Notes under the pieces: generated by a model
The model's input: the letters and a program-made list of their open reading frames with translations, nothing else
Database searches by the model: none
Told to the model about the DNA's origin: nothing
Made by a program: the position numbers and the translations under genes
Shown: positions 1-55,000 of the stretch, piece by piece
Layout: each line of letters opens with the position of its first letter
Position numbering within the stretch: position 1 is the stretch's first letter
Assembly: GCA_037367355.1 (NCBI GenBank)
Contig: CM074701.1
Location: forward strand, 1,984,001 to 2,048,000
Source of the DNA: Neoscytalidium dimidiatum
Taxonomy: Eukaryota; Ascomycota; Dothideomycetes; Botryosphaeriales; Botryosphaeriaceae
Direction of reading: 5' to 3'
Length of the DNA: 64,000 nt

Positions 1-351
1 GTTGCTTGCCCGTTATGCGACTTCGGCTTCGAGAGCGATGGTGGCGCCGACCCGTACCGGGCGTGGGAGGCGCGCATGAGCCATCTGGCGGCGCACATGC
101 GGCTGGGCCAGACGATGGGGACGGCGCGCCCGGATTTCAAGCTCTACCGGTATCTGTGGTCGAAGAGGATTATCGACGATGCCGAGTACAAGGAGTTGAG
201 TGGCGGCGCGACGCTATCGGCGGGCCCGAGGTCGGAGAGAAGGAGTGCGCCAGCCGTGACGACGCAGGGGAGGCATGTGGAGGGGAGGAGGGAGCGCGTA
301 CAGCATTATCCAATGCATAATCGGGTGCAAGGGTATCCGGGTTATTCTTGA
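1..351 (+). CDS. C2H2 zinc-finger protein, 3' end only
   Basis: The frame is open from base 1 and ends with TGA at 349-351, so only the last 116 codons of a gene that starts outside the window are present. The first residues carry a Cys-x2-Cys pair (C3 and C6). After an acidic and glycine-rich linker comes His-x3-His (HLAAH, about residues 27-31), which together make a C2H2 zinc finger with a longer than usual spacer. The zinc ligands are followed by a conserved-looking block (RPDFKLYRYLWSK) and a low-complexity tail rich in Arg, Gly and Tyr. A role as a nucleic-acid-binding or transcription factor is an inference from the finger alone. No intron is evident in the visible part. Confidence 0.5.
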   Translation, partial: VACPLCDFGFESDGGADPYRAWEARMSHLAAHMRLGQTMGTARPDFKLYRYLWSKRIIDDAEYKELSGGATLSAGPRSERRSAPAVTTQGRHVEGRRERVQHYPMHNRVQGYPGYS

Positions 352-1196
352 GCAGGGAGAGTTCGCGAGTGGGTTGGGGAGTGATGATTGGGAAGACTGC
401 TGTAAGCGGGAGAGCAAGAGAAGGAAAGAGGGGACAACAAAATCATGACGTCTCGGCTCGTTTCTTCCCCCCCCCCCCCCCTCACCACCACCACTTTCTT
501 CCCATCTTCAGATTTGTTTGGTTTCGTTTTCACCGTTTCCCTACTTTGTTTTAGTATGCTTTGCGACACGCTCCCATCAGAGACGGAGAGAAGCGCTATC
601 GATACCCAGATTGGCAGGCCTGCGCTACCGCTCGCCGTTTTCTATATCTCGTTAGTCTCGTCCTTGCTTCTTTTTTTCGGGAGAGAAAAAAGGGGAATTC
701 TTGGGATCCCTTCATGTCCATTTGGAATAACGAAAGCCTTGGTGTGTTTTGGCGTTTTTGGAAGGGAAGCGCCTGCCTCATCAGAGGTCACGAGAAAAAT
801 GTTACCTGGGGCCTTTACCGTTTTCTTTTTTGTTTTCTCCTCTTGTTTCTCTCGCCTCAATTACGTTTTGTTTCCAGGGTAACTACTGGGTTATTGTCTG
901 TTGTTCCCTTCGGAGATACTGGCGAAATGCCAAGCTCAAAGGAAGCAAATATACGTCATTCTGATCAGCAAGTCGCCACTGGAGAACGTATTGTGCCAAG
1001 GTGATCGTCACGGGCGCCACAGGGGGACGCAGAACGCGTGGCTCAGGGCTGAAGGAGCTCCTCCGTCTCGAGGCACCTTTGGTGTGGAGGCGGTTGGATG
1101 GAGGATGCGTGTGGCGTCAGCCCTGGGGTAGGGTTCCGAAAGGGTATCCATTGCCATTGCCGGTCTGATTTGCTGTCAGCTCCACTGTTAGGGCAT

Positions 1197-4100
1197 TTCG
1201 GACGTCGGCATGAATCGGCTGAGCAGTCCTGTGACAATGGATGGGTCCGCGTGCGTCCCATGATGTTATGTGTCCCGAAAGTGCTTCCTTCATGGGGGGG
1301 GGAAAGGACGTTGATGGTACGTGCCTACGGTGCACATCGGGAATGAAGCACGGAGAGCCAGCATTCGAACATCGGACGTCTGGACGAGTCGACGGCGGCA
1401 ACACGATGGCTGGGTTGAGGGCCTTCGGCTTCTCCGTGCTGTTAGCGTCCGGACGGCGCAAACGGTGTCACGGCGTGACCCAGCAATGCTGACGGAGCGT
1501 TTGCCCGGAAATGGAGGTTCGAGGAGCGAAGGGCGAACCTCGAAACGACTCGGACTAGAAGGCGTTACGGACATCGCTTGGGTCGTGCCGTTGGTGATCC
1601 TACAATTAGCCTCCGGTGTAGCGGGGGTTGACCGTTGGCAAAGGGAATGCACGAAGTGGATATCGAGGCATCAACCTCGAACGTCTGGACTGAATCGAGT
1701 GATGCAGACGAGCAGAACATTCGGGCCCGTAAGTTCTCCGTGAAGAGATACCGCGGTAGAAGGACGCACAAGTGACGAGGTGGGGCAGGAGGCGCCGGCG
1801 GGATGGTCAGGATTATTGCGGCGTGGAGGAGGCATGCAAGAGTGATCAACTTCGAACGTCTGAACTGAATCGACAGGTGGTTGTTTTGTCAACGGCTCGT
1901 GGCCCATCGGCCTTGTTCGGGGCAGTGCGCCGACAGGGCAAACGGATTGATGCTCCATGATTTGCGGGAAGGGGACAACCGCTGTCCAAGATCGAACGTC
2001 TGGCACGAATCGCTCTTGCAGCGCGACCGGACGATCGTGAAGGTCGGTTATTCTCTTTTTTATGGAGCCTGCGTGAAGGGATCCGATGGATGGAGGGGTG
2101 CAAGTTCAGACGTCGGATCTGAGTCGCCGGGATGGCACTCCCCTATGCACCTGCCATCCACTGGCACGCCGCTCTCCGCGGAGGCGCCTTGAAGGAGCAA
2201 TAGCAGCGTTGCCTCGAACGTCTGAAATGAATCGATCGTGGCGAACGACACGTGCCTCGGCACGCGGCGAGGCATGCCTGTAACGTCTGTGTTTGCCTCT
2301 TGGTGGAGCTTCTTTGGCGAGGAGCCAGCAAGGCCGCGGAGCTCGCAGTTCATCTCGAGATCTCTTTCTACTTTGGGAAGATTGAGGCACGCAGGGAACG
2401 GGCCGGTGCTCTTGTTTAGGCCAACATCGAACGTCGGGAATGATTCGAAGGCTGGCTGCTACAAGCGGCGTGAGTCGCGCGCTCCCCAACCGTCAGTTCC
2501 CGCCGCATGTTCGCGCTCTCGATCGGCCGCGCCTTGATGTTATTTTCTGCTCTGCGTGGTAGCAGCGCGCGGGTCAGGCACTCATTTGGGGCAGGCTCAA
2601 ACGGCGGACATGAGTCGAAGCCTCTCAGCAAGAGATGGGCCCTCCTCTCTCATGAGTCGTTATTTCCGACGCGATGACAAATTGATGATTACTCTACAGC
2701 ACACAGCTCACAGACATCGAAGGCATCTGCAGACGACAGCGGGTGGAGCTGGCAGCAAAGTGCGGCGCCGCCACCATATGGCACGCATCCAGGCCGGCGG
2801 AGCTGCGAGGCACAACTTCCAACGTCTGGACTGAATCGAAAGTAGCTTACCCGCGGCGCCGCGTCACAGTGCTAGCACCTGCAGAGTCTAGGGAAAGGGA
2901 CAAACAAGCATACCACGGCTGATTGACCCGTGAATCCGGCTGGTTCCTGCTTCTTGGCCTTTCCTTGCTCTGGGCACGCCAGTGGGCGGCAGAAGCGCCC
3001 AACTTCCAACGTCTGGGTCTGATTCGTATTCGCGAGAGGATGCCTCTCACGGCTCAGGTTTTCCAGGCGCGCCTTGTTTTGGGGCTACCCACACCACAGC
3101 TCCCCTTTGCATTCGACTCGTGGATCTCCCGAGAGCGCTTTCTCGAGAGGGGCGACCTTATGGGCGTCTCGGCAGATGACGCCATCCCGCCGAACGATCT
3201 GCCCGAGTTGGCCCCCTTTCGGGCGTGGTGTCTCTCGCTTTGCATTTCTACTTTGTTTGGACCTGCATTGCTAGCTGGCGAGGAACAGCAGCAGTGCTGG
3301 GATACGCCTATTGTTTTCCGGGAGCGCAGTGGCGCCTGGGCTGGCGCTGATAGTCTGGCCCTGCCCTTTTTTTATCTCGGCGAAGGATCGAAACGGGCGT
3401 GCTCGGCGCGTGTCGGGTGTCGGGGGGCGGAACATGCGTCGTAGGTGGTGGCTCATGGCGCTTAGAGAAGGAAATGATTCAGGGACGTGCGAACAGGCTC
3501 AGGCATTGAGTCGTCGGGCTGGGTGCGTGGGTCGACAGTCTCGGCGAACGAGCACACGACGGCGGCGACCCAGGAGTCGGCTGGGGCCTTGCCAGCGCTG
3601 TACAATATTTTTTTTTCTTTTTCTCACACCGAGGTGCGTTTCCGACGGCGTCGGTGCCACCAGCGTCTGCCGATGTGGATTCCTGTTAGGAAATTGGGCG
3701 AAGTTCCAACGTCTGGACATGATTCGAAGCGTGGTTAAGGGGAGCGGGAGGCATTGTGACTGAGTCGCTGATGCCCCGAAAGGTGAAGACCTTATATCCG
3801 CGTCGGACGTGAGCCAAATCCGACGACAATCCCTCTTTCGGAGCGCAGCAGGTGCGGACCGCTCCTCCTCTGCATATACCGTTGCTGCAACGCTCAACCC
3901 TAACTGCACGTCGCGGCTCTGCTACTCTACAACGTGGTGGTAGTCACAGCAGCCCCAGCGGGCCCAGCAGCGCGCCGCTGGGCGGCGCTCCTTCGCGCAG
4001 CGTCGGATCAGGTCTCAGCGGCGCCAACGGACCAGCTGTGGGCATGACACGTCACAGGGGCGGGTAGTGGTTGCGAATCGCCTTAGGGTGGTCTGAATCG

Positions 4101-4784
4101 CAAAGCGGCAGTGTGGTCTTCTCACAGACCGTGGGATGACGTCAGGGCAGGCGGCGGGCGGAAATAACGGCGTGAGGCGACGGGGCACTGACACTGGCAC
4201 TGGTGTGCTGGGGCCTGGGGGGCCCTGGGAGCAACGGCGAGGCTGCCGAGAGGGTCCCACGGCGTGTGCCAGTGTGCCAGTGTGCCAGTGTGCCAATGTG
4301 CCAGTGCAGGTCCGAGGGTCCCACGGTCCCGCGGTCCACAGCCCACGGTCCACGGTCCACGGTCCCCGGTCCCTTGCCGGGCGGCGGCGTGGAGCGCGTC
4401 GGGTGTGATGAGCGCGGAGACGGCTTCGAGCGCTGGTTCTGCTGATCAGATTGTCGACAGAAGGGCGTTTCCAGCCCATGATCCGATCGCATCGCTCGTC
4501 GGAGCTGGCCCCGACCGCCGCGCTGCCAGCCGAAACGTGCCAACTGCCCGATCCGGCATGGATTGCCTTCACCTCCAAGTGAACATGCCTCACGCAAACG
4601 AGCCAACGCCCATAACCAGCGACCACCTCCCAGCACCGCGACGCACGGCGCGCTTTTTGGGAGCAGATCCCCTCCCATACCTCCCCAGAGCCCACCGCCC
4701 ACGCCTCCAAACCATGCATTCCCCTGAAAGAGGGCAAGCCGTAGCTTATTTCCGCCCAACCTCGAACGTCGCACACGACTCGAC
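1197..4784 (+). repeat. Interspersed 22-23 bp motif array, 13 copies
   Basis: A degenerate motif, consensus TTCGAACGTCTGGACTGAAT followed by CGA, recurs in one orientation. Copies begin near 1197, 1371, 1677, 1851, 1991, 2105, 2212, 2426, 2596, 2817, 3004, 3704 and 4761. Copies at 1677, 1851 and 2817 are nearly identical; others differ at 3-8 positions. The ACGTC core and the GANTCG end are best kept. The ends form a short inverted repeat (TTCGA and TCGAA) in several copies. Spacers of about 85-280 bp within the main cluster show no clear similarity to one another, so this is not a simple tandem repeat. I saw no reverse-strand copy and no good copy elsewhere in the window. Function unknown. 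Confidence 0.75.
4265..4304 (+). repeat. 8-bp minisatellite
   Basis: Five head-to-tail copies of TGTGCCAG, the fourth ending in A instead of G. It is followed at 4321-4372 by a second cluster of the word CCACGGTC and variants. Both lie in non-coding DNA. Frames reading through them give low-complexity peptides, which explains long but meaningless open frames here. Confidence 0.8.
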
Positions 4785-6525
4785 TGAGTGAGCTATCGAG
4801 AGCTACGAGAGCTACGAGAGCCCGCCCCGACTGTTGTCCCAAACATCCCCACGGCCGTTTCGGGAAAGAGTGTGTGAGCTGTGGGAGCTGACGTCAGGCC
4901 TACCTGCCACGCTGCTCGCTTGCTTGCGCCTCGGCCTCGGCCCTGGCAACCGCGCGAGCCCACCGAAACTCTCATTTTGCTCAAGGCTCTATCGACCCCT
5001 ATTCTATCTCTCTCCCTTTGCTTCTCTGCAATCGCTCCTGGGAACATCTCCTCCGTCCTGCCTCGCATGTGGCGGCGCCTTCACGGCCAACCTTCCTCAT
5101 CCTTGGCACCGAGGATGTTCGGCAACTTTTTGTGGAGCTGCGCAAGAGCTTGGGAAAAAGATATCCGGCCAAAGGATCCATCATTTGGAGACGCGCGTCG
5201 CGGGAATGCTGCCCCGTCCTGTAAATTCCCTTCGCCTTGCCTTTAGCTTATTCTCTTCTCGAGAGCACGTCTTCTCAACCCTTGATATCGTCTGCCGTCT
5301 CCATCCTCCCGTCTCCATTTGATCAGCGCCTCCTCTCACTGTGAGAACACGGATCTAGAATCTACCTCGCCGATGATAAGAAGCAGCTGCCTGCATCTCC
5401 AGCTTGAGATCAAGCAGGTGCAAATCAGGGAAAGAACGTATGGTTCAGGCAGTAAAACCAGCCACATCTGCTACACGGGCAAACGGTCAGCAGTCACCAC
5501 GAGTCTGGGAGAGGCTTGCCTTCGATCTTCATAATATTACGCTGAGGCGATTTACGCGATAATCCCTCAGCTACTGGCTAGATGAACGATATGGAGCTTC
5601 GCCTTGTAGCAGAAGCCATATGGAGATCTCGACGACCTGTCGTCAGTTCCCAGATAAGATGATGTGCATACGAGCATGCCGATCATCGACCCGGGGGGCC
5701 AGATGATATGCACATGATGGGTGAAAACACCAGGAAAACTCCTCGATAATCTAAAAGCCCCCTCGATTGACGAAGTTGACTGGGCGAAAGGCCATCATAT
5801 GTGGTAGGCTCTTCAATGTCTTAACGACCGGCTGACAAGGGAGGCTCGTTGCGCTACGTAAAGGATTGTCACTGAGAAAAACAACTGGAGCCAATGACTG
5901 TACCGTCCCACTCTTCACATCCTTACTTCCCAGGACCACGCCAGTTCCATATGCTATATCACTTAATCGAGTCTTCAGATCTAGCTCAACGCTGCCTGGA
6001 CTCTCGGCGTATGTGATAGGCTACTCATATGCAACATCCCAAAACGAATCGGGGCGCCAAGTGCGTTAAAAAAAAATCTGCTGCAGACAATCATCGAGTG
6101 GACCGATAAGAAAGTGTCTTCTCAATCATAGCCCATTGTTCACCGCTTTTTGACCATAGTTTCCCGTTTTCTGCTGAGGCATCTGTTACGATTAGTTGGC
6201 TTCCGAGTTGTTCTTTATCCCATGATCAAACACCCGGGTGAAAGACTAGCACGGAATGCGTCCTCTTTCATCATTTCGCATTTCTCCTGAAAACTCTTTA
6301 CCATTCATACTTCGGGACTCGCAAAACGAGTCACCACGGCTGTCCGTAAGCAGTATTGACTCGAGCCTACGAATACGGTCACGTCCACAACGGTGCAAGA
6401 CCATAGGCCATCCTGCACATCAACACCTGTAGAATTATGATCAGAAAGACTCCCAGTTACTACCTAGTCACATGGTCACACTCTTGTTCAAGATAACATC
6501 CGCATATATTTAAGACGTGACGCTG

Positions 6526-8915
6526 CTAGATGACGCAGATATCGAAACGCGGAAATTCTTGTGGTACGTCTGTTTCCCAAAATGGGTCCTCTTCGGAATT
6601 ACTGCCTTTGCTTTGGCCCTCGAAAGGTTCTCGTGCAAAACCTTTCAAACTGAGCATCCCTGACTTCCGTGCGCCCGGTATGCAAAGGGTTTGCGTTGCA
6701 AGAAGTCTCAGAAGTCTACGAGCTTGGATCCTTCCAATCACCTCTCCATAACCAATCCTCCGAAATTGCCCCGGGCAGTCCTCTGCGGGCGCAAGTATTA
6801 GCCCGGGAATACATATCACTTTCCCAGATTCCCAGATAACCGGCATGAACAAGCATTCGGCCGGATGGATATTTTGACCGAAGCGGCAACCTTCATCCAT
6901 CTTCACGTTTTGCATGCAAAACGTAGCGTCTGCTTCCTGGGCCGCTGTTATGCGAAATCGGTGTAGGACTTCTTGTTGGTTGGTCGATCCGAAGTATCCC
7001 TCGTCAGACCCCCTTAGAACGTCTCTTATGGAGTTCACGATGTTATGGCTAGTACGTCTATGTGGAGAGTGTTCTAACACCGCTTCCAGCAGTAGCCCAG
7101 AGACGTGAAGTTTTCCCGATATTCTGGGCGCATAAGGATCTCCGTCTGAAATGACGTCGTTAACATTGATCATGACCTTATGATCATAACGGCGAGATCC
7201 ATACAGCGGGGTTATCCTTCCATCAACAGATGCCCAACTCCAGGATGGCGCTCTATATGCGTCTCCCACGGCACGAATGCCGTCATTTTTCGTTCTGACC
7301 GACCAACAGAGCTGTGGCGGAAGGTTATTACTCCAAATGCCGGCGATATATGACCCGGCAAGTTGACCGTACGCCTTGGAGACTGCCCGGGCAAGAGCGG
7401 AAATGGCTACCAACTTGTCGGCCGGCTTGGTGAGCTTACAAGCAGCGTAGCTGGACAAGATATCTCCCCATATTTCTAGAAAGTGCTGTGGGTCATTGGC
7501 TTGCTCTTCGGTCAAGGGTTGGAATGCCAGACGCTTAAATGGGTATACCGCGAAGGAGCGAGGCAGCTCCACGGGAAACATCTCTGCCGCTCGTTGTTCG
7601 CGGCATTCCCAGAAGACTTGGTCACGGCAAAAATGGACAACCCGGGGAGACAGGACGCGCTCTTGTAGCACCCATCCCCGGCTGTTCACAGGCCCGCGTT
7701 CTACTTGCGAATGCCATATGCCGTAGGGATAACAGACGTACTCCCCCTCGGAGAATCGTGGATGATTCGGCGGGATTTTGACAAAACATGAAGAAGCTAT
7801 CGATGCTCCCATCCTTTCCCGGAAGAGGCCTCCGGAGGAGTTCCTTGAGGCCGTCGCTGAGAGGTTGAGATGTGAATTGGCGTATATCTGCCACATCATG
7901 CCGGCCTGGTGAAGCCAGTCCTGCTCCGAATCTTGAATGATGCAGAGCGAGTCAATCCAGATGTAGTTAACACCAAGGGCTTTGGCAACCGTAATGGCAT
8001 CCACAAACGTTTTTGGAAGATTGTCAGTGGGAATCCCACACTTGAAAGAGCTCAGTGCACTCAGCGTCAGTAGGACATGTGTTCTCCCACCCCAGCAGTG
8101 GCTAAGAGTGAGATACTTGTCGGCAGGGTCTAGGTCCACACTCTCCACTATCCGTATGGGATCCTGAGCAGACACCAGCCGCGTAGGTAGAAAAGTTGGA
8201 GACTCCTGCTCATTGGTCAAGCATTTGTGAGAGCTTGTACAGGTATTGACCCACGAGGCAATTTGGTCCAGTGTCTGCTGGGAGCCAGAAGATGGGGTTA
8301 ATTTTGCGCAATAGCTCCTCGGAAATCCTTAGTAAATTAGTTCGGAGATATGTTGCATGGACCAAAAGAAAGCAACAAAGACCTACTGGCGACATCTAAG
8401 AGCTTGACCATTACGTTTGGAATCTTCACTGAGCTTCGACTGTCCCCGGAAACAAGCTCGCAGCTTCGATAGCACTTGATTGTGTACCTTTCCCTCTTTT
8501 CCAGACTCGCGGCCAGAACGCACCTCCCCGGCCCTTCTTCCACGGTTATCTCTTCTGCTGACTCGGATTCGCTCGTCAGAAGATGCACTTGTTTCCTGAT
8601 GTTTCCCCGTGGCTCGCGTATTTCGTTCCAAATTATGGCGCAAAGCGGGCACCCTTCGAGCGCTGATGACTCGAGCGAGTCTCCATCCCAATGCCTGTAC
8701 GGACCGGATTCGGAGGGAATTGGCGAACGCCGCGTTTGGATCCCGTCATCCTCCCAAGTCAGTGTAGCATCGTCCTTCGCTTCCTCCAGTATATATCGAC
8801 AATATTTGCAATATCCGGGGTTAAGTTCGCCCTCAGGAGTTGTTGAGCGATCCAGCGGTGGTCTGATGCCATTAAAAACTGCCGTAGCCTGAGGCACATA
8901 TGAAGTCGTCGGCAT
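6526..8915 (-). CDS. Heterokaryon incompatibility (HET) domain protein
   Basis: Two exons: 8915-8387 and 8327-6526, joined over a 59-bp intron (donor GTAGGT, acceptor TAAG), giving 776 residues. The N-terminal exon has Cys pairs typical of HET proteins (CKYC, then CPLC). After the splice the sequence reads TPSSGS, then WVNTCTSSHKC, the usual lead into the domain. The HET domain spans about residues 248-390, with LSHCWGG, then YIWIDSLCIIQD, then NLSATAS. HET proteins set off vegetative incompatibility and cell death after fusion of unlike mycelia; the partner and trigger of this one cannot be read from sequence. An upstream in-frame Met at 9041 would add 42 residues; 8915 is chosen as the Met nearest the conserved part. 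Stop codon at 6526-6528. Confidence 0.85.
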
Positions 8916-52057: not shown

Positions 52058-55000
52058 TCAAACCCAGAACATCTTGTCATTCAAGCTAGGGTGCCAGGGG
52101 TTCATCCTGCCCCTGAACTTTCCTGCCTCAGCTGTTTCCCAGACGTTGTAAGGCCTTGAATGGTTCAGGCGCCTTGCTTCACGCCTCTCAAACTCCTTTA
52201 TATCAATCCCAAGACCCCGGCGGTACTTCGTGATCAGCGATGAGGGGCCGGGACGTCCAAGCAACCAATCCCGGATGTAGCAGCGGCCACGCTCGCAAAG
52301 CCGGTCAGCGTGATAAGCTGGCGCACAGTACGATATACCTTTGGTGGCCGTGCCGTATGCGAAGCATAAGGAGTGTGTGAGGGCTTGGATTTGTTCCTCG
52401 TTCAGTTTGATGTCGTTGCGGATTAGAAAGTAGTGCGCGCTCCGCGCCGTCCCCTTGATGGCCGCGTGTGACTGAAGGAAGAAGTCGAAGCAGTAAGGGT
52501 GGGTGATGACTGAATCGACTACCAAGCCTGGCATAATATTTGTGGACCGGTCCTCGTCCTTCTTCTGCATGGGGTAGAATCTGGTGTTGTGACGCTTCCC
52601 CACAACCACGCAAGTAATTCTCACCTTGGAGACACTGGATGGTTTTTCGGACTGCTTCAGCGCCATCCACGCTTTTTCGATGGCCATAACTTCTTTATCG
52701 CGGACTGAGTCGTACTGGGATTCGCTCACGCCATCTCGATAGAATACAATGTTTGCCGGTAATCGTTTGTTCTTTCTGCCATACATGTTGAGTAGCTCCA
52801 GAGTCATCTCCTCCGTGTGCTCAATGAACTGAAGCTTGTCAGCATATAGTAATAATATGAAGGGTAGAAGATGCTTACTTCTTGGCGGCTCTTCTGAAGC
52901 CTCATAGACCCGAAATAATTCAGGGCATGCTCGTCCATGCTCGCAACAGCAGCGGAAATGGAGGGGCAATGCGGTGCAGCGCCTGATGTCGGGTGCGTAA
53001 CATCTGCCCCCATAATCATCGTGTCCGTGCCAACAGCATGAAGTGCACCTTCGACTTGATGTGGCCGTCCTCCAGTCTTCATCGAAAACTTCAAGGCAAT
53101 GTTGGACAACGTTTGCTCTGGAAGTAATTTCTTTGGAGGTGATGCCGAGCAGATGGTGAGAATCCCACGAGTATCGCAAACTGTCTTGATCGCGGAGTAC
53201 AGGTCGGCACCCTTATCAGGCAATAATACCACCGTGATTCTGTTCTTCCTCATTTCAGAATCCAAATCACTGATAATCTTCCTCACTGAAGCCAGGTAAC
53301 TGCCTTCTGAGTCGGGGCGAGGCGATACGATTCTGTGCCACGTCTGCTGCATGTCCGCGACTCGGATATCGTGATCGCAGAGTATCCGAGCCAGAACCCT
53401 GGAAAGGTCTTGAGCGCTCACTTCTGAATGCCCTAGAGTAAGGATACCCATCCTCGGTAAGGTAGAGGGTACAGCAAAGGGCTGTTTCCGCATCTTTTGG
53501 TCAACGAGCCTCCAGCTTGCCCCTTTTGGTTGCACGGTCTGGGGCTTTCCCTTGATTGCGCCGTACCTGAGAGTCGGTTGATCCAAAATTCGAGCAGGAA
53601 CGTTGACAAGTTTGTCATCAACGTCCAAGCCGATCTCTTCCTGGCTGAGGACCCTCGTGCCAGCAGTGGCGGAGGCCGTGTTGCCCTTCTTAATCCCGAG
53701 GTGGACTAAACCTTCATTGACGATCAAGTTGGCATTCTGTGCTGGAGTACGAAGAGCAGCTTTCATCATCCGATCCGTGAATACAGGGGGAAGAATGGCG
53801 TTGCACGGCTGTGGATAGTCGATTTCAAGCAGCTCCGCTGGAACCCACTGCTCTCTGCCCGGCAAGACTCCGCCAATATTGACGCACGGCACGTTAGAGT
53901 CCTTCTTCAGTGGACATCCATCCGACGTCTTGAAATAATCGTAAACGGTCATTCCGCCGTCGCACGTGGAAAAGGTCTGGTTTGATGGCGTCAGCCCAAA
54001 TCCAGCGACTACTCTCCTCCGACTCTCCTCCCTGTTGATCTCCTCAATAAATCTGTCGTACGTAATCCGGACGATCTTCTTGTTCAACATTCCAATTATT
54101 AACCAATCCTGAATCCTGTGCTGGCGCATGATTTCGAAAAATGTGGAAACTAGCATGGGCTTGAAGAAAGCAGAGGTCGTCGTGTTCACATTGAGGAGAA
54201 TGCGGTCATTACCTGGGCGAATAGAAGAGTAGTAGCCACGAATAGTGACGAATGGAGAGTCCGGACCCATGTCAGAGTAGGCGTCGGTCAGGAAGAAGCG
54301 GTTCGCGCCAATGTGCTGAATAGGTGTTGAAGTTGAGCAGCACATAAATCTTGAGATAAAGGCGTTCAAAGCTCTTGTCTTCTTTGAAACGTCAGTTCCA
54401 GTGGTGGTTTTGCCGCCCTCGAGTATGTCTAGGTGGCCGCGACTGAGGTCAAGGACACCGTTCAAATTGAGCGCGACCAGAGGAATCGTTTCGGAACGTC
54501 CATTGGGCTTGGTATAAGTAAGGTTTGTGATGAAGAACTGTTCTTCATGAAACAACTTCCCTACAGTCCAGATCTCATTGTTGCGTGTAGACCTGTGTCA
54601 TGTATGAATGGAAAGAATGACAAGCCTCGTGGAAGAAGCACATACCAATTGTTGGCGGAGATCAGTGGTTGGACAGTCTGCAAGCTGTCAACGATGCGTC
54701 TTGCATCGCTTCCCCGGACATCTTTGAGGTCCTTTGAAACAAGCTTTTCCTCATCGTCCTTGGCGAAGCTGCAGATGATGCTATATACAAATAGCTTCTC
54801 TGGTGCTTGCTTTACCACCACGTAATTAGTGATCACGCGTATTCGCCTTCCTGAAGTTCCGTAATTCCTTCGTAGACTGTTTGAGGTGACGTAATCCGCT
54901 GGTGCGCTCTTCGATGAATTAGCGTTGGCCGGAACTGCTTGTACTGTTTTGGTATTCTCGTTGAACTGATTAGCTGGATGAGCCAAGCGCTGCACGGCAG

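Follow-up and report, generated by a model that had tools for sequence, protein, structure and literature searches.

Oriented arrays of a bipartite motif in gene-free DNA of Neoscytalidium dimidiatum: a general left half and a right half characteristic of the array

What is the role of a short motif that recurs in a single direction through several kilobases of gene-free DNA? This question is raised by a locus of the fungus Neoscytalidium dimidiatum, where the window (the whole stretch of 64,000 nucleotides analyzed here, C7:1984001-2048000 in a scanned genome of 43.76 Mb in 40 contigs) carries, at positions 1193-4784 and on the + strand only, 13 copies of a bipartite motif, CAACNTCNAACGTCTG-N2..4-YGANTCGA. 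The original prediction of at least 13 non-chance copies, all in one direction, was borne out in both respects; the motif is, however, 27-29 bp long rather than the 22-23 bp first proposed, because the conserved part begins at CAAC. Beyond that prediction, the left half of the motif is general in the genome, and it is the right half that typifies an array. On the basis of sequence comparison, the feature can be read, with a probability of roughly 0.55, as an array of bipartite protein-binding sites in DNA, where a shared factor would be joined by a partner specific to the array type. The array and its copies are as follows:

1193..4784, +, whole array: non-coding, with 13 copies in one orientation, spacers that are mutually unrelated, and some right halves standing alone
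1193..1219, +, copy 1, GCATTTCGGACGTCGG-ca-TGAATCGGC, the weakest: 23.7 bits (leave-one-out 18.1 bits)
1367..1393, +, copy 2, gap 2: 29.0 bits
1672..1699, +, copy 3, CAACCTCGAACGTCTG-gac-TGAATCGAG: 35.3 bits
1847..1874, +, copy 4, CAACTTCGAACGTCTG-aac-TGAATCGAC, the best: 38.0 bits
1987..2014, +, copy 5: 31.2 bits
2101..2128, +, copy 6: 29.5 bits
2209..2236, +, copy 7: 28.4 bits
2422..2449, +, copy 8: 35.5 bits
2592..2619, +, copy 9: 27.2 bits
2813..2840, +, copy 10: 37.0 bits
3000..3028, +, copy 11, gap 4: 32.7 bits
3700..3728, +, copy 12, gap 4: 33.1 bits
4757..4784, +, copy 13: 29.1 bits

Could such a set of copies have arisen by chance? The weight-matrix check proposed with the original prediction was carried out iteratively and converged on these 13 copies (23.7-38.0 bits), the best other place in the window reaching 12.6 bits; the statement that no good copy exists elsewhere in the window was therefore right, although the genome has many. 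When each copy was scored by a matrix built from the remaining 12, no equal was found for any of them elsewhere in the window (57.5 kb, both strands) or on the antisense strand of positions 1-6500, and in 3 Mb of third-order Markov sequence there was none for 11 of the 13, one for copy 9 and four for copy 1. Nor did shuffled sequence generally yield as many matches: a simpler consensus with up to two mismatches gave 20 matches versus 9.2 expected, a number reached by 1 of 100 shuffles. The window thus holds the excess of copies over chance in a short stretch that marks homotypic or composite factor-site clusters.

By simple pattern, YGANTCG is present in 13/13 copies, and it follows the left half after a gap of 2 to 4 bp, so that no reading frame is kept through the motif. 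The left half may, judging from column frequencies, consist of two 7-bp steps, CAACNTC and NAACGTC. Solitary right halves also occur: in positions 1101-4900, TGANTCG stands alone five times on the + strand and never on the - strand, against an expectation, set by the remainder of the window, of about one per strand. The suggested dyad between the TTCGA and TCGAA ends proved not to be meaningful: opposite the C that never varies in the right half, the 13 copies have G, C or A. In the main cluster, successive copies start 108-305 bp apart, and the last two steps are 700 and 1057 bp, in agreement with the earlier view that this is not a CRISPR-like array of fixed spacing. Short tandem repeats, GTGTGCCA and GGTCCCAC, lie at 4264-4373 in the last spacer and are unrelated to the motif.

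Is the motif a peculiarity of the window, or does it belong to a wider family? The pattern CAACNTCNAACGTC occurs at 95 genome sites versus 7 for the reversed pattern; 38 of these sites fall in 10 clusters and 57 have no neighbor within 5 kb, and the 28 neighbor pairs within that distance compare with 1.0 expected and a maximum of 5 in 2000 simulations. The left 14-mer has 41 exact matches in the genome and, with one mismatch, 126 versus 36 for the reversed pattern (100 of the 126 were listed individually). Other arrays sharing the left half lie on C1, C2, C5, C6 and C9, the largest seen having about 26 copies over about 5.8 kb, and the left half is present at all ten multi-copy loci read, the window included. 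Over 99 copies, each of its 14 positions is 75-100% identical, a figure inflated by the choice of copies at up to three mismatches. Some of the 57 lone sites have degenerate neighbors by eye (loci L057 and L052; L numbers denote loci read), while L063 has no neighbor copy at up to three mismatches in 1.7 kb.

At the same threshold, all copies lie on one strand at L041/L064 (C1:1399-1405 kb; 19/19), L043 (the C2 array beside L060; 9/9), L042 (C1:3667 kb; 6/6), L045 (4/4), L046 (3/3) and L048 (3/3). Sites on both strands, counted as + and -, were found at L011 (8 and 4), L044 (1 and 5), L040 (5 and 1), L049 (2 and 2) and L047 (1 and 1). L011 covers 10 kb around a two-mismatch match on C1 returned by a whole-genome pattern search; it holds five full copies on the + strand plus several left halves without a right half, some in head-to-head inverted pairs. 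One perfect inverted left-half pair, TGCGACGTTCGAAGTTG-TGATTAATTGT-CAACTTCGAACGTCGCA, stands at about 2396-2442 of this locus (C1:1175.79 kb), and further head-to-head pairs are seen at 2988/3058 and, by eye, at about 3758/3843.

The next question is how the right half behaves from array to array. At the ten multi-copy loci, a right half recurs in most copies of an array. Outside the window, the following forms were found:

C1:1399-1405 kb: TCCTT or a near variant, 18 of 26 copies
C2:876 kb: CGGCCG, 8 of 11 copies
C9:1952-1957 kb: YYCCG end, 5 of 6 copies
C5:3711 kb: GCCAAG..GTTGGC, 6 of 6 copies
C6:270 kb: ATTTAYCCGG, 3 of 3 copies
C1:4466 kb: common right half, 3 of 3 copies
C1:3667 kb: loose right half

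Right-half identity was measured on the 20 nt beginning 2 nt past the left 14-mer; copies with more than three mismatches or near a locus end were dropped, which left 10 of the 13 window copies, 19 of about 26 at L041/L064 and 4 of 6 at L045. Identity was 0.444 within loci versus 0.344 between them, a difference matched by none of 1000 label shuffles. The 20 nt upstream of the left half gave no within-locus signal (0.332 versus 0.328; 243 of 1000 shuffles), and neither did a far upstream control (488 of 1000); a far downstream control was slightly raised (0.343 versus 0.328; 1 of 1000), which fits young duplications. Individual loci vary: L049 has no common right half (0.30 within), that of L042 is weak (0.38 versus 0.35), and L011 is weak overall (0.37), its common right half being confined to the five + copies at 4288-5558.

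Is each right half then private to its locus? The full bipartite pattern of the window has 19 matches in the genome versus 7 for the control, namely 12 in the window array, 4 at C1:1177.7-1179.0 kb and 3 elsewhere. The right-half identity between the window and this C1 array is 0.52, equal to the level within the window, and the flanks of the two show no alignment (130 comparisons; mean z 0.14, highest 3.3). A reader acting in trans would be expected to leave such a pattern, and an old shared founder could also have produced it. Since a right half can thus be common to two arrays, it is array-type-specific, not strictly locus-specific. Another loose type unites L044, L048 and L042 (0.43-0.47), and L052 with L057 gives 0.44; other pairs mostly range from 0.32 to 0.42. 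The GGAGTCGAYTCCG type may have a life outside arrays, with 10 genome occurrences versus 1 for the reversed control (e.g. C10:1530586 and C2:1534078); among three extra places read, L068 keeps ACGTAGC ahead of it and two have no clear left half by eye. The copy at C2:1534078, which has an isolated left-half site about 110 bp away, may be part of a decayed array.

Many right halves look palindromic by eye (e.g. GCCAAGNGGTTGGC at L045 and GGAGTCGACTCC at L042). The palindrome score per locus was 3.50 versus 3.01 at random positions (0 of 200), and an earlier version of the test gave 3.61 versus 3.21 for shuffles and 3.19 for distant stretches; the test is nevertheless weak, because a control stretch 30-48 nt downstream likewise exceeded its null (3.34, 0 of 200). 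The best of 283 dyad geometries, with arms at +2..5 and +10..13 after GTC, was 36% paired versus a mean of 24.4% (standard deviation 3.6). The dyad showed no excess of G-U over A-C (0.09 versus 0.11), and the symmetry is read as a potential dimer dyad rather than an RNA stem.

Another important question is how the arrays arose. Spacers were cut at 300 nt for comparison, and the 150 nt after the last copy served as the thirteenth window spacer. In the window, none of the 78 pairs reached z 4 (highest 3.1, mean 0.24), and neither a tandem repeat over the copies nor units aligning along their whole length, as in a satellite, were found; the spacers are thus mutually unrelated and the array is no tandem satellite, which agrees with the original prediction. 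At L041/L064, 1 of 276 pairs passed z 4 (z 5.4, non-adjacent copies, one too-short spacer omitted), and L042, L048 and L011 had no aligning pair. L043, L044, L045 and L046 have one aligning pair each (z 6.1-9.5), always between adjacent copies, and this makes tandem duplication followed by spacer decay the simplest history. Such a comparison suggests that the arrays probably grew by tandem duplication and that the spacers decayed while the footprint was kept; the one-strand orientation would then be explained without RNA.

The original prediction had left a choice between selection on the motif and the burst-like insertion of a very short element. The burst is disfavored because the spacers of adjacent copies still align in four other arrays, as tandem duplication leaves them, whereas the persistence of the window motif beyond its spacers points to selection on binding sites. 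Within this one genome, sites were kept while the intervening DNA diverged, and the footprint edges are sharp in the window and at L041/L064, at a looser copy threshold that admitted a few overlapping false copies here and in the intron-signal analysis below. For hand-picked copies, the spacing is coherent at 162 bp at L041/L064 (7 of 2000 nulls) and at 80 bp at L043 (6 of 2000), values that could reflect either the original unit or nucleosome spacing.

Where do the arrays lie with respect to genes? Both flanks were seen for the window only, and elsewhere mostly one. The genes beside the window array are:

1..351, +, C2H2-like zinc-finger gene, 3' end, directed towards the array: open frame closed by a stop at 349-351, CPLC...H...H by eye
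6526..8220, -, HET-domain gene, 3' end facing the array: PF06985, E = 2.3e-30

Both genes end towards the array, which is therefore part of neither promoter. The C2H2-like piece has no Pfam match; homologs came only from its upstream exon used as a query, with six of 7991 scored candidates significant. These carry the names Botryosphaeria, Neofusicoccum, Diplodia and Lasiodiplodia, one is called 'zinc c2h2', and the best identity is 58% over 66% of the query. Elsewhere, a metallo-beta-lactamase-fold gene (C5), an RRM gene (C2), an MFS gene (C1:1174 kb), and a protein-kinase gene at C1:1398 kb (Pkinase, under the curated cut-off) also end towards an array, which makes six such flanking genes, and so does a weaker frame without a family match at C6 (L062). 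At L040, by contrast, the sites stand on the opposite side of the MFS gene, probably its 5' side. The arrays are thus mostly not simple promoters. Within the window array, the top frame (2063-2458, - strand, 132 codons) has a coding score of 10.7 versus 21.0 for the HET gene, and neither it nor two other array frames have a Pfam match. Farther away, the window contains a piece of an Argonaute gene (52804-54555, - strand; Piwi and ArgoL1 over the cut-off, ArgoL2 and PAZ below), a U2 spliceosomal RNA gene lies at 8037-8227 (- strand) of L011, about 2.5 kb past the last full copy of the C1 array, and a transfer RNA (tRNA) gene lies at 2375-2464 of L060, near the C2:876 kb array.

Which mechanism would account for these arrays? 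We suppose that the left half, CAACNTCNAACGT[CA]K, is recognized by a common factor of high sequence specificity, and that a second reader, differing by array type, reads the right half 2-4 bp on (here YGANTCG, as at one C1 array). The arrays would have grown by local tandem duplication of a unit of ~80-200 bp, after which the spacers decayed and purifying selection kept the ~30 bp footprint. Local occupancy would be high with so many sites in a row, and an array would therefore most likely serve as a dense platform for regulation or chromatin (enhancer, silencer, boundary or sink) within gene-free DNA. Sites on both strands at some loci and the head-to-head pairs suit a role in DNA. What the sequence shows directly are the sites, their family, the array-specific halves, the spacers without mutual similarity and the traces of duplication at other arrays; protein binding, selection and a regulatory role are what we infer.

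Several observations weigh against this proposal. No reader protein was found, and among 150 scored Zn2Cys6 (Zn_clus) matches from 301 candidates none lies within 25 kb of a cluster, the nearest being 26 kb away at C8; a free-standing Zn2Cys6-like site was rejected as an identity for the right half on the same result. In the window, the spacing shows no significant periodicity (656 of 2000 nulls); most flanking genes seen have their 3' ends on the array side, which does not suit simple promoters; and the one-strand orientation of most arrays could also mean RNA. By simple pattern, the right half of the array is missing in 8/26 copies at L041/L064, 3/11 at L043 and 1/6 at L044, and these include every one of the three L041/L064 copies whose left half is perfect. 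The right half of L045 occurs outside its own array at 3 places only (0 for the reversed control, ~4 expected by hand calculation), which is odd for an ordinary factor site. As a separate observation, the perfect-left-half copies at L041/L064 look as if two site classes were mixed.

The main rival, which we consider unlikely, is a family of long non-coding RNAs (lncRNAs): each array would be transcribed in the motif direction, and the single-stranded motif would bind an RNA-binding protein with its left half and an array-specific partner or target with its right. The complete one-strand orientation of the window and of L041/L064, L043, L042, L045, L046 and L048, the stretches of several kilobases without clear coding signal and the position of the window array between two gene 3' ends would all suit such transcripts. 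The orientation, however, is already accounted for by tandem duplication, and L011, L044, L040, L049 and L047 hold sites on both strands. In five arrays, sense-strand structure is absent (mean z -0.42 to 0.07), and 80-nt pieces taken at the copies are, on both strands, no more stably folded than shuffled sequence (20 of the 26 L041/L064 copies folded); intron-like signals show no sense excess (2 versus 2 over nine stretches), and no Rfam family matches the copies. It is less probable still that the arrays are functionless, decaying remains of local duplications or short insertions and the left half a relic of one old repeat family. Duplication does happen, as the spacer homology of adjacent copies at four arrays attests, and many copies are imperfect, some without a right half, yet neutral decay would erase everything together, and in the window and at L041/L064 both halves are recognizable between spacers that no longer align. 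The conservation of the left half (even if inflated by selection of copies) and the lack of a full-motif match in viral contigs also speak against a relic.

Two further explanations are more doubtful still. The arrays might be chromosomal address tags, with a common machine on the constant half and a regional identity, matched in trans, in the array-specific half; homolog pairing, locus clustering or locus-specific silencing may be named as examples of their use, but we regard this as improbable. The least probable, by analogy with fission-yeast RTS1 or the terminator boxes of ribosomal DNA, are direction-dependent replication or transcription barriers between genes. Many copies in one orientation would fit such barriers, as would the window, C5 and C1:1399-1405 kb arrays, which point to the 3' end of a convergent gene; two arrays, however, lie downstream of a same-strand gene (L043 after the L060 RRM gene and L011 after the MFS gene), several loci hold sites on both strands, and the change of the second half from array to array would be left unexplained.

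Known identities were also considered. Rfam gave 6 matches on window positions 1-7000, all far under the gathering score, and at gathering score on 15 loci only the U2 small nuclear RNA and the tRNA, both away from the copies; a host gene of small nucleolar RNAs was set aside, as Rfam gave no match. AACCCTAAC at about 3896 resembles a telomerase template by eye, and telomerase RNA was rejected, with no match to an Rfam telomerase family. The consensus of the tRNA B box, GGTTCGANTCC, includes the C that never varies in the T loop; left-half position 8 is G in 79%, C in 10%, A in 9% and T in 2% of copies, and the flanking GG/CC is absent, so a B box or extra TFIIIC site was rejected. CRISPR arrays have a near-constant spacer length; spacing and gene content spoke against CRISPR, integron-like attC sites and Helitron ends, for which no dedicated test was made.

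If the docking proposal holds, the combination of a general half with an array-specific half in oriented arrays would be a clean natural case of combinatorial DNA addressing, and the address-tag explanation, if true, would amount to a combinatorial address code in fungal DNA. With a left half this specific, isolating its reader should be easy, and arrays that differ in the right half offer a natural experiment on how a second half-site confers locus identity. The arrays may also help to explain gene-free stretches of at least 5 kb in a fungal genome.

How do these arrays compare with known systems? The RTS1 fork barrier of fission yeast, which acts with Rtf1, is a single locus with few repeats; it shares repeated one-orientation motifs in intergenic DNA with the arrays described here, which differ in forming ten clusters plus 57 sites without a close neighbor and in having several second halves. 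Vertebrate CTCF has a long bipartite site with a variable gap and one-orientation arrays, all features seen here; to our knowledge, fungi have no CTCF, and we know of no array-specific half in CTCF sites, such as the present arrays have; no multi-finger reader was identified for the latter. In fission yeast, chromosome-associated lncRNA pairing loci are reported to use a common protein set, each locus having its own identity, which resides in meiotic lncRNAs (PMC6898681). The likeness lies in a few chromosomal loci with common proteins and individual identity, and the difference in that identity here would lie in short repeated half-sites. Among the top-ranked titles and abstract openings of the open literature on repeated-motif lncRNA in fungi, homotypic clusters, Botryosphaeria, promoter motifs of Neofusicoccum and non-coding arrays of Dothideomycetes (subscription journals and preprints being outside this scope), no description of such arrays was found, and the core words of the motif led, by title, to unrelated topics only. 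Homotypic or composite factor-site clusters share many site copies in non-coding DNA, a near-fixed spacing of the halves and a motif kept amid diverged spacers. The present arrays differ from them in a left-half specificity of 14-15 bp or more, a mostly one-strand orientation, a changing second half, a size of about 26 copies over about 5.8 kb in the largest array seen and a placement other than that of a simple promoter. Even so, a homotypic cluster of composite factor sites is the closest known kind.

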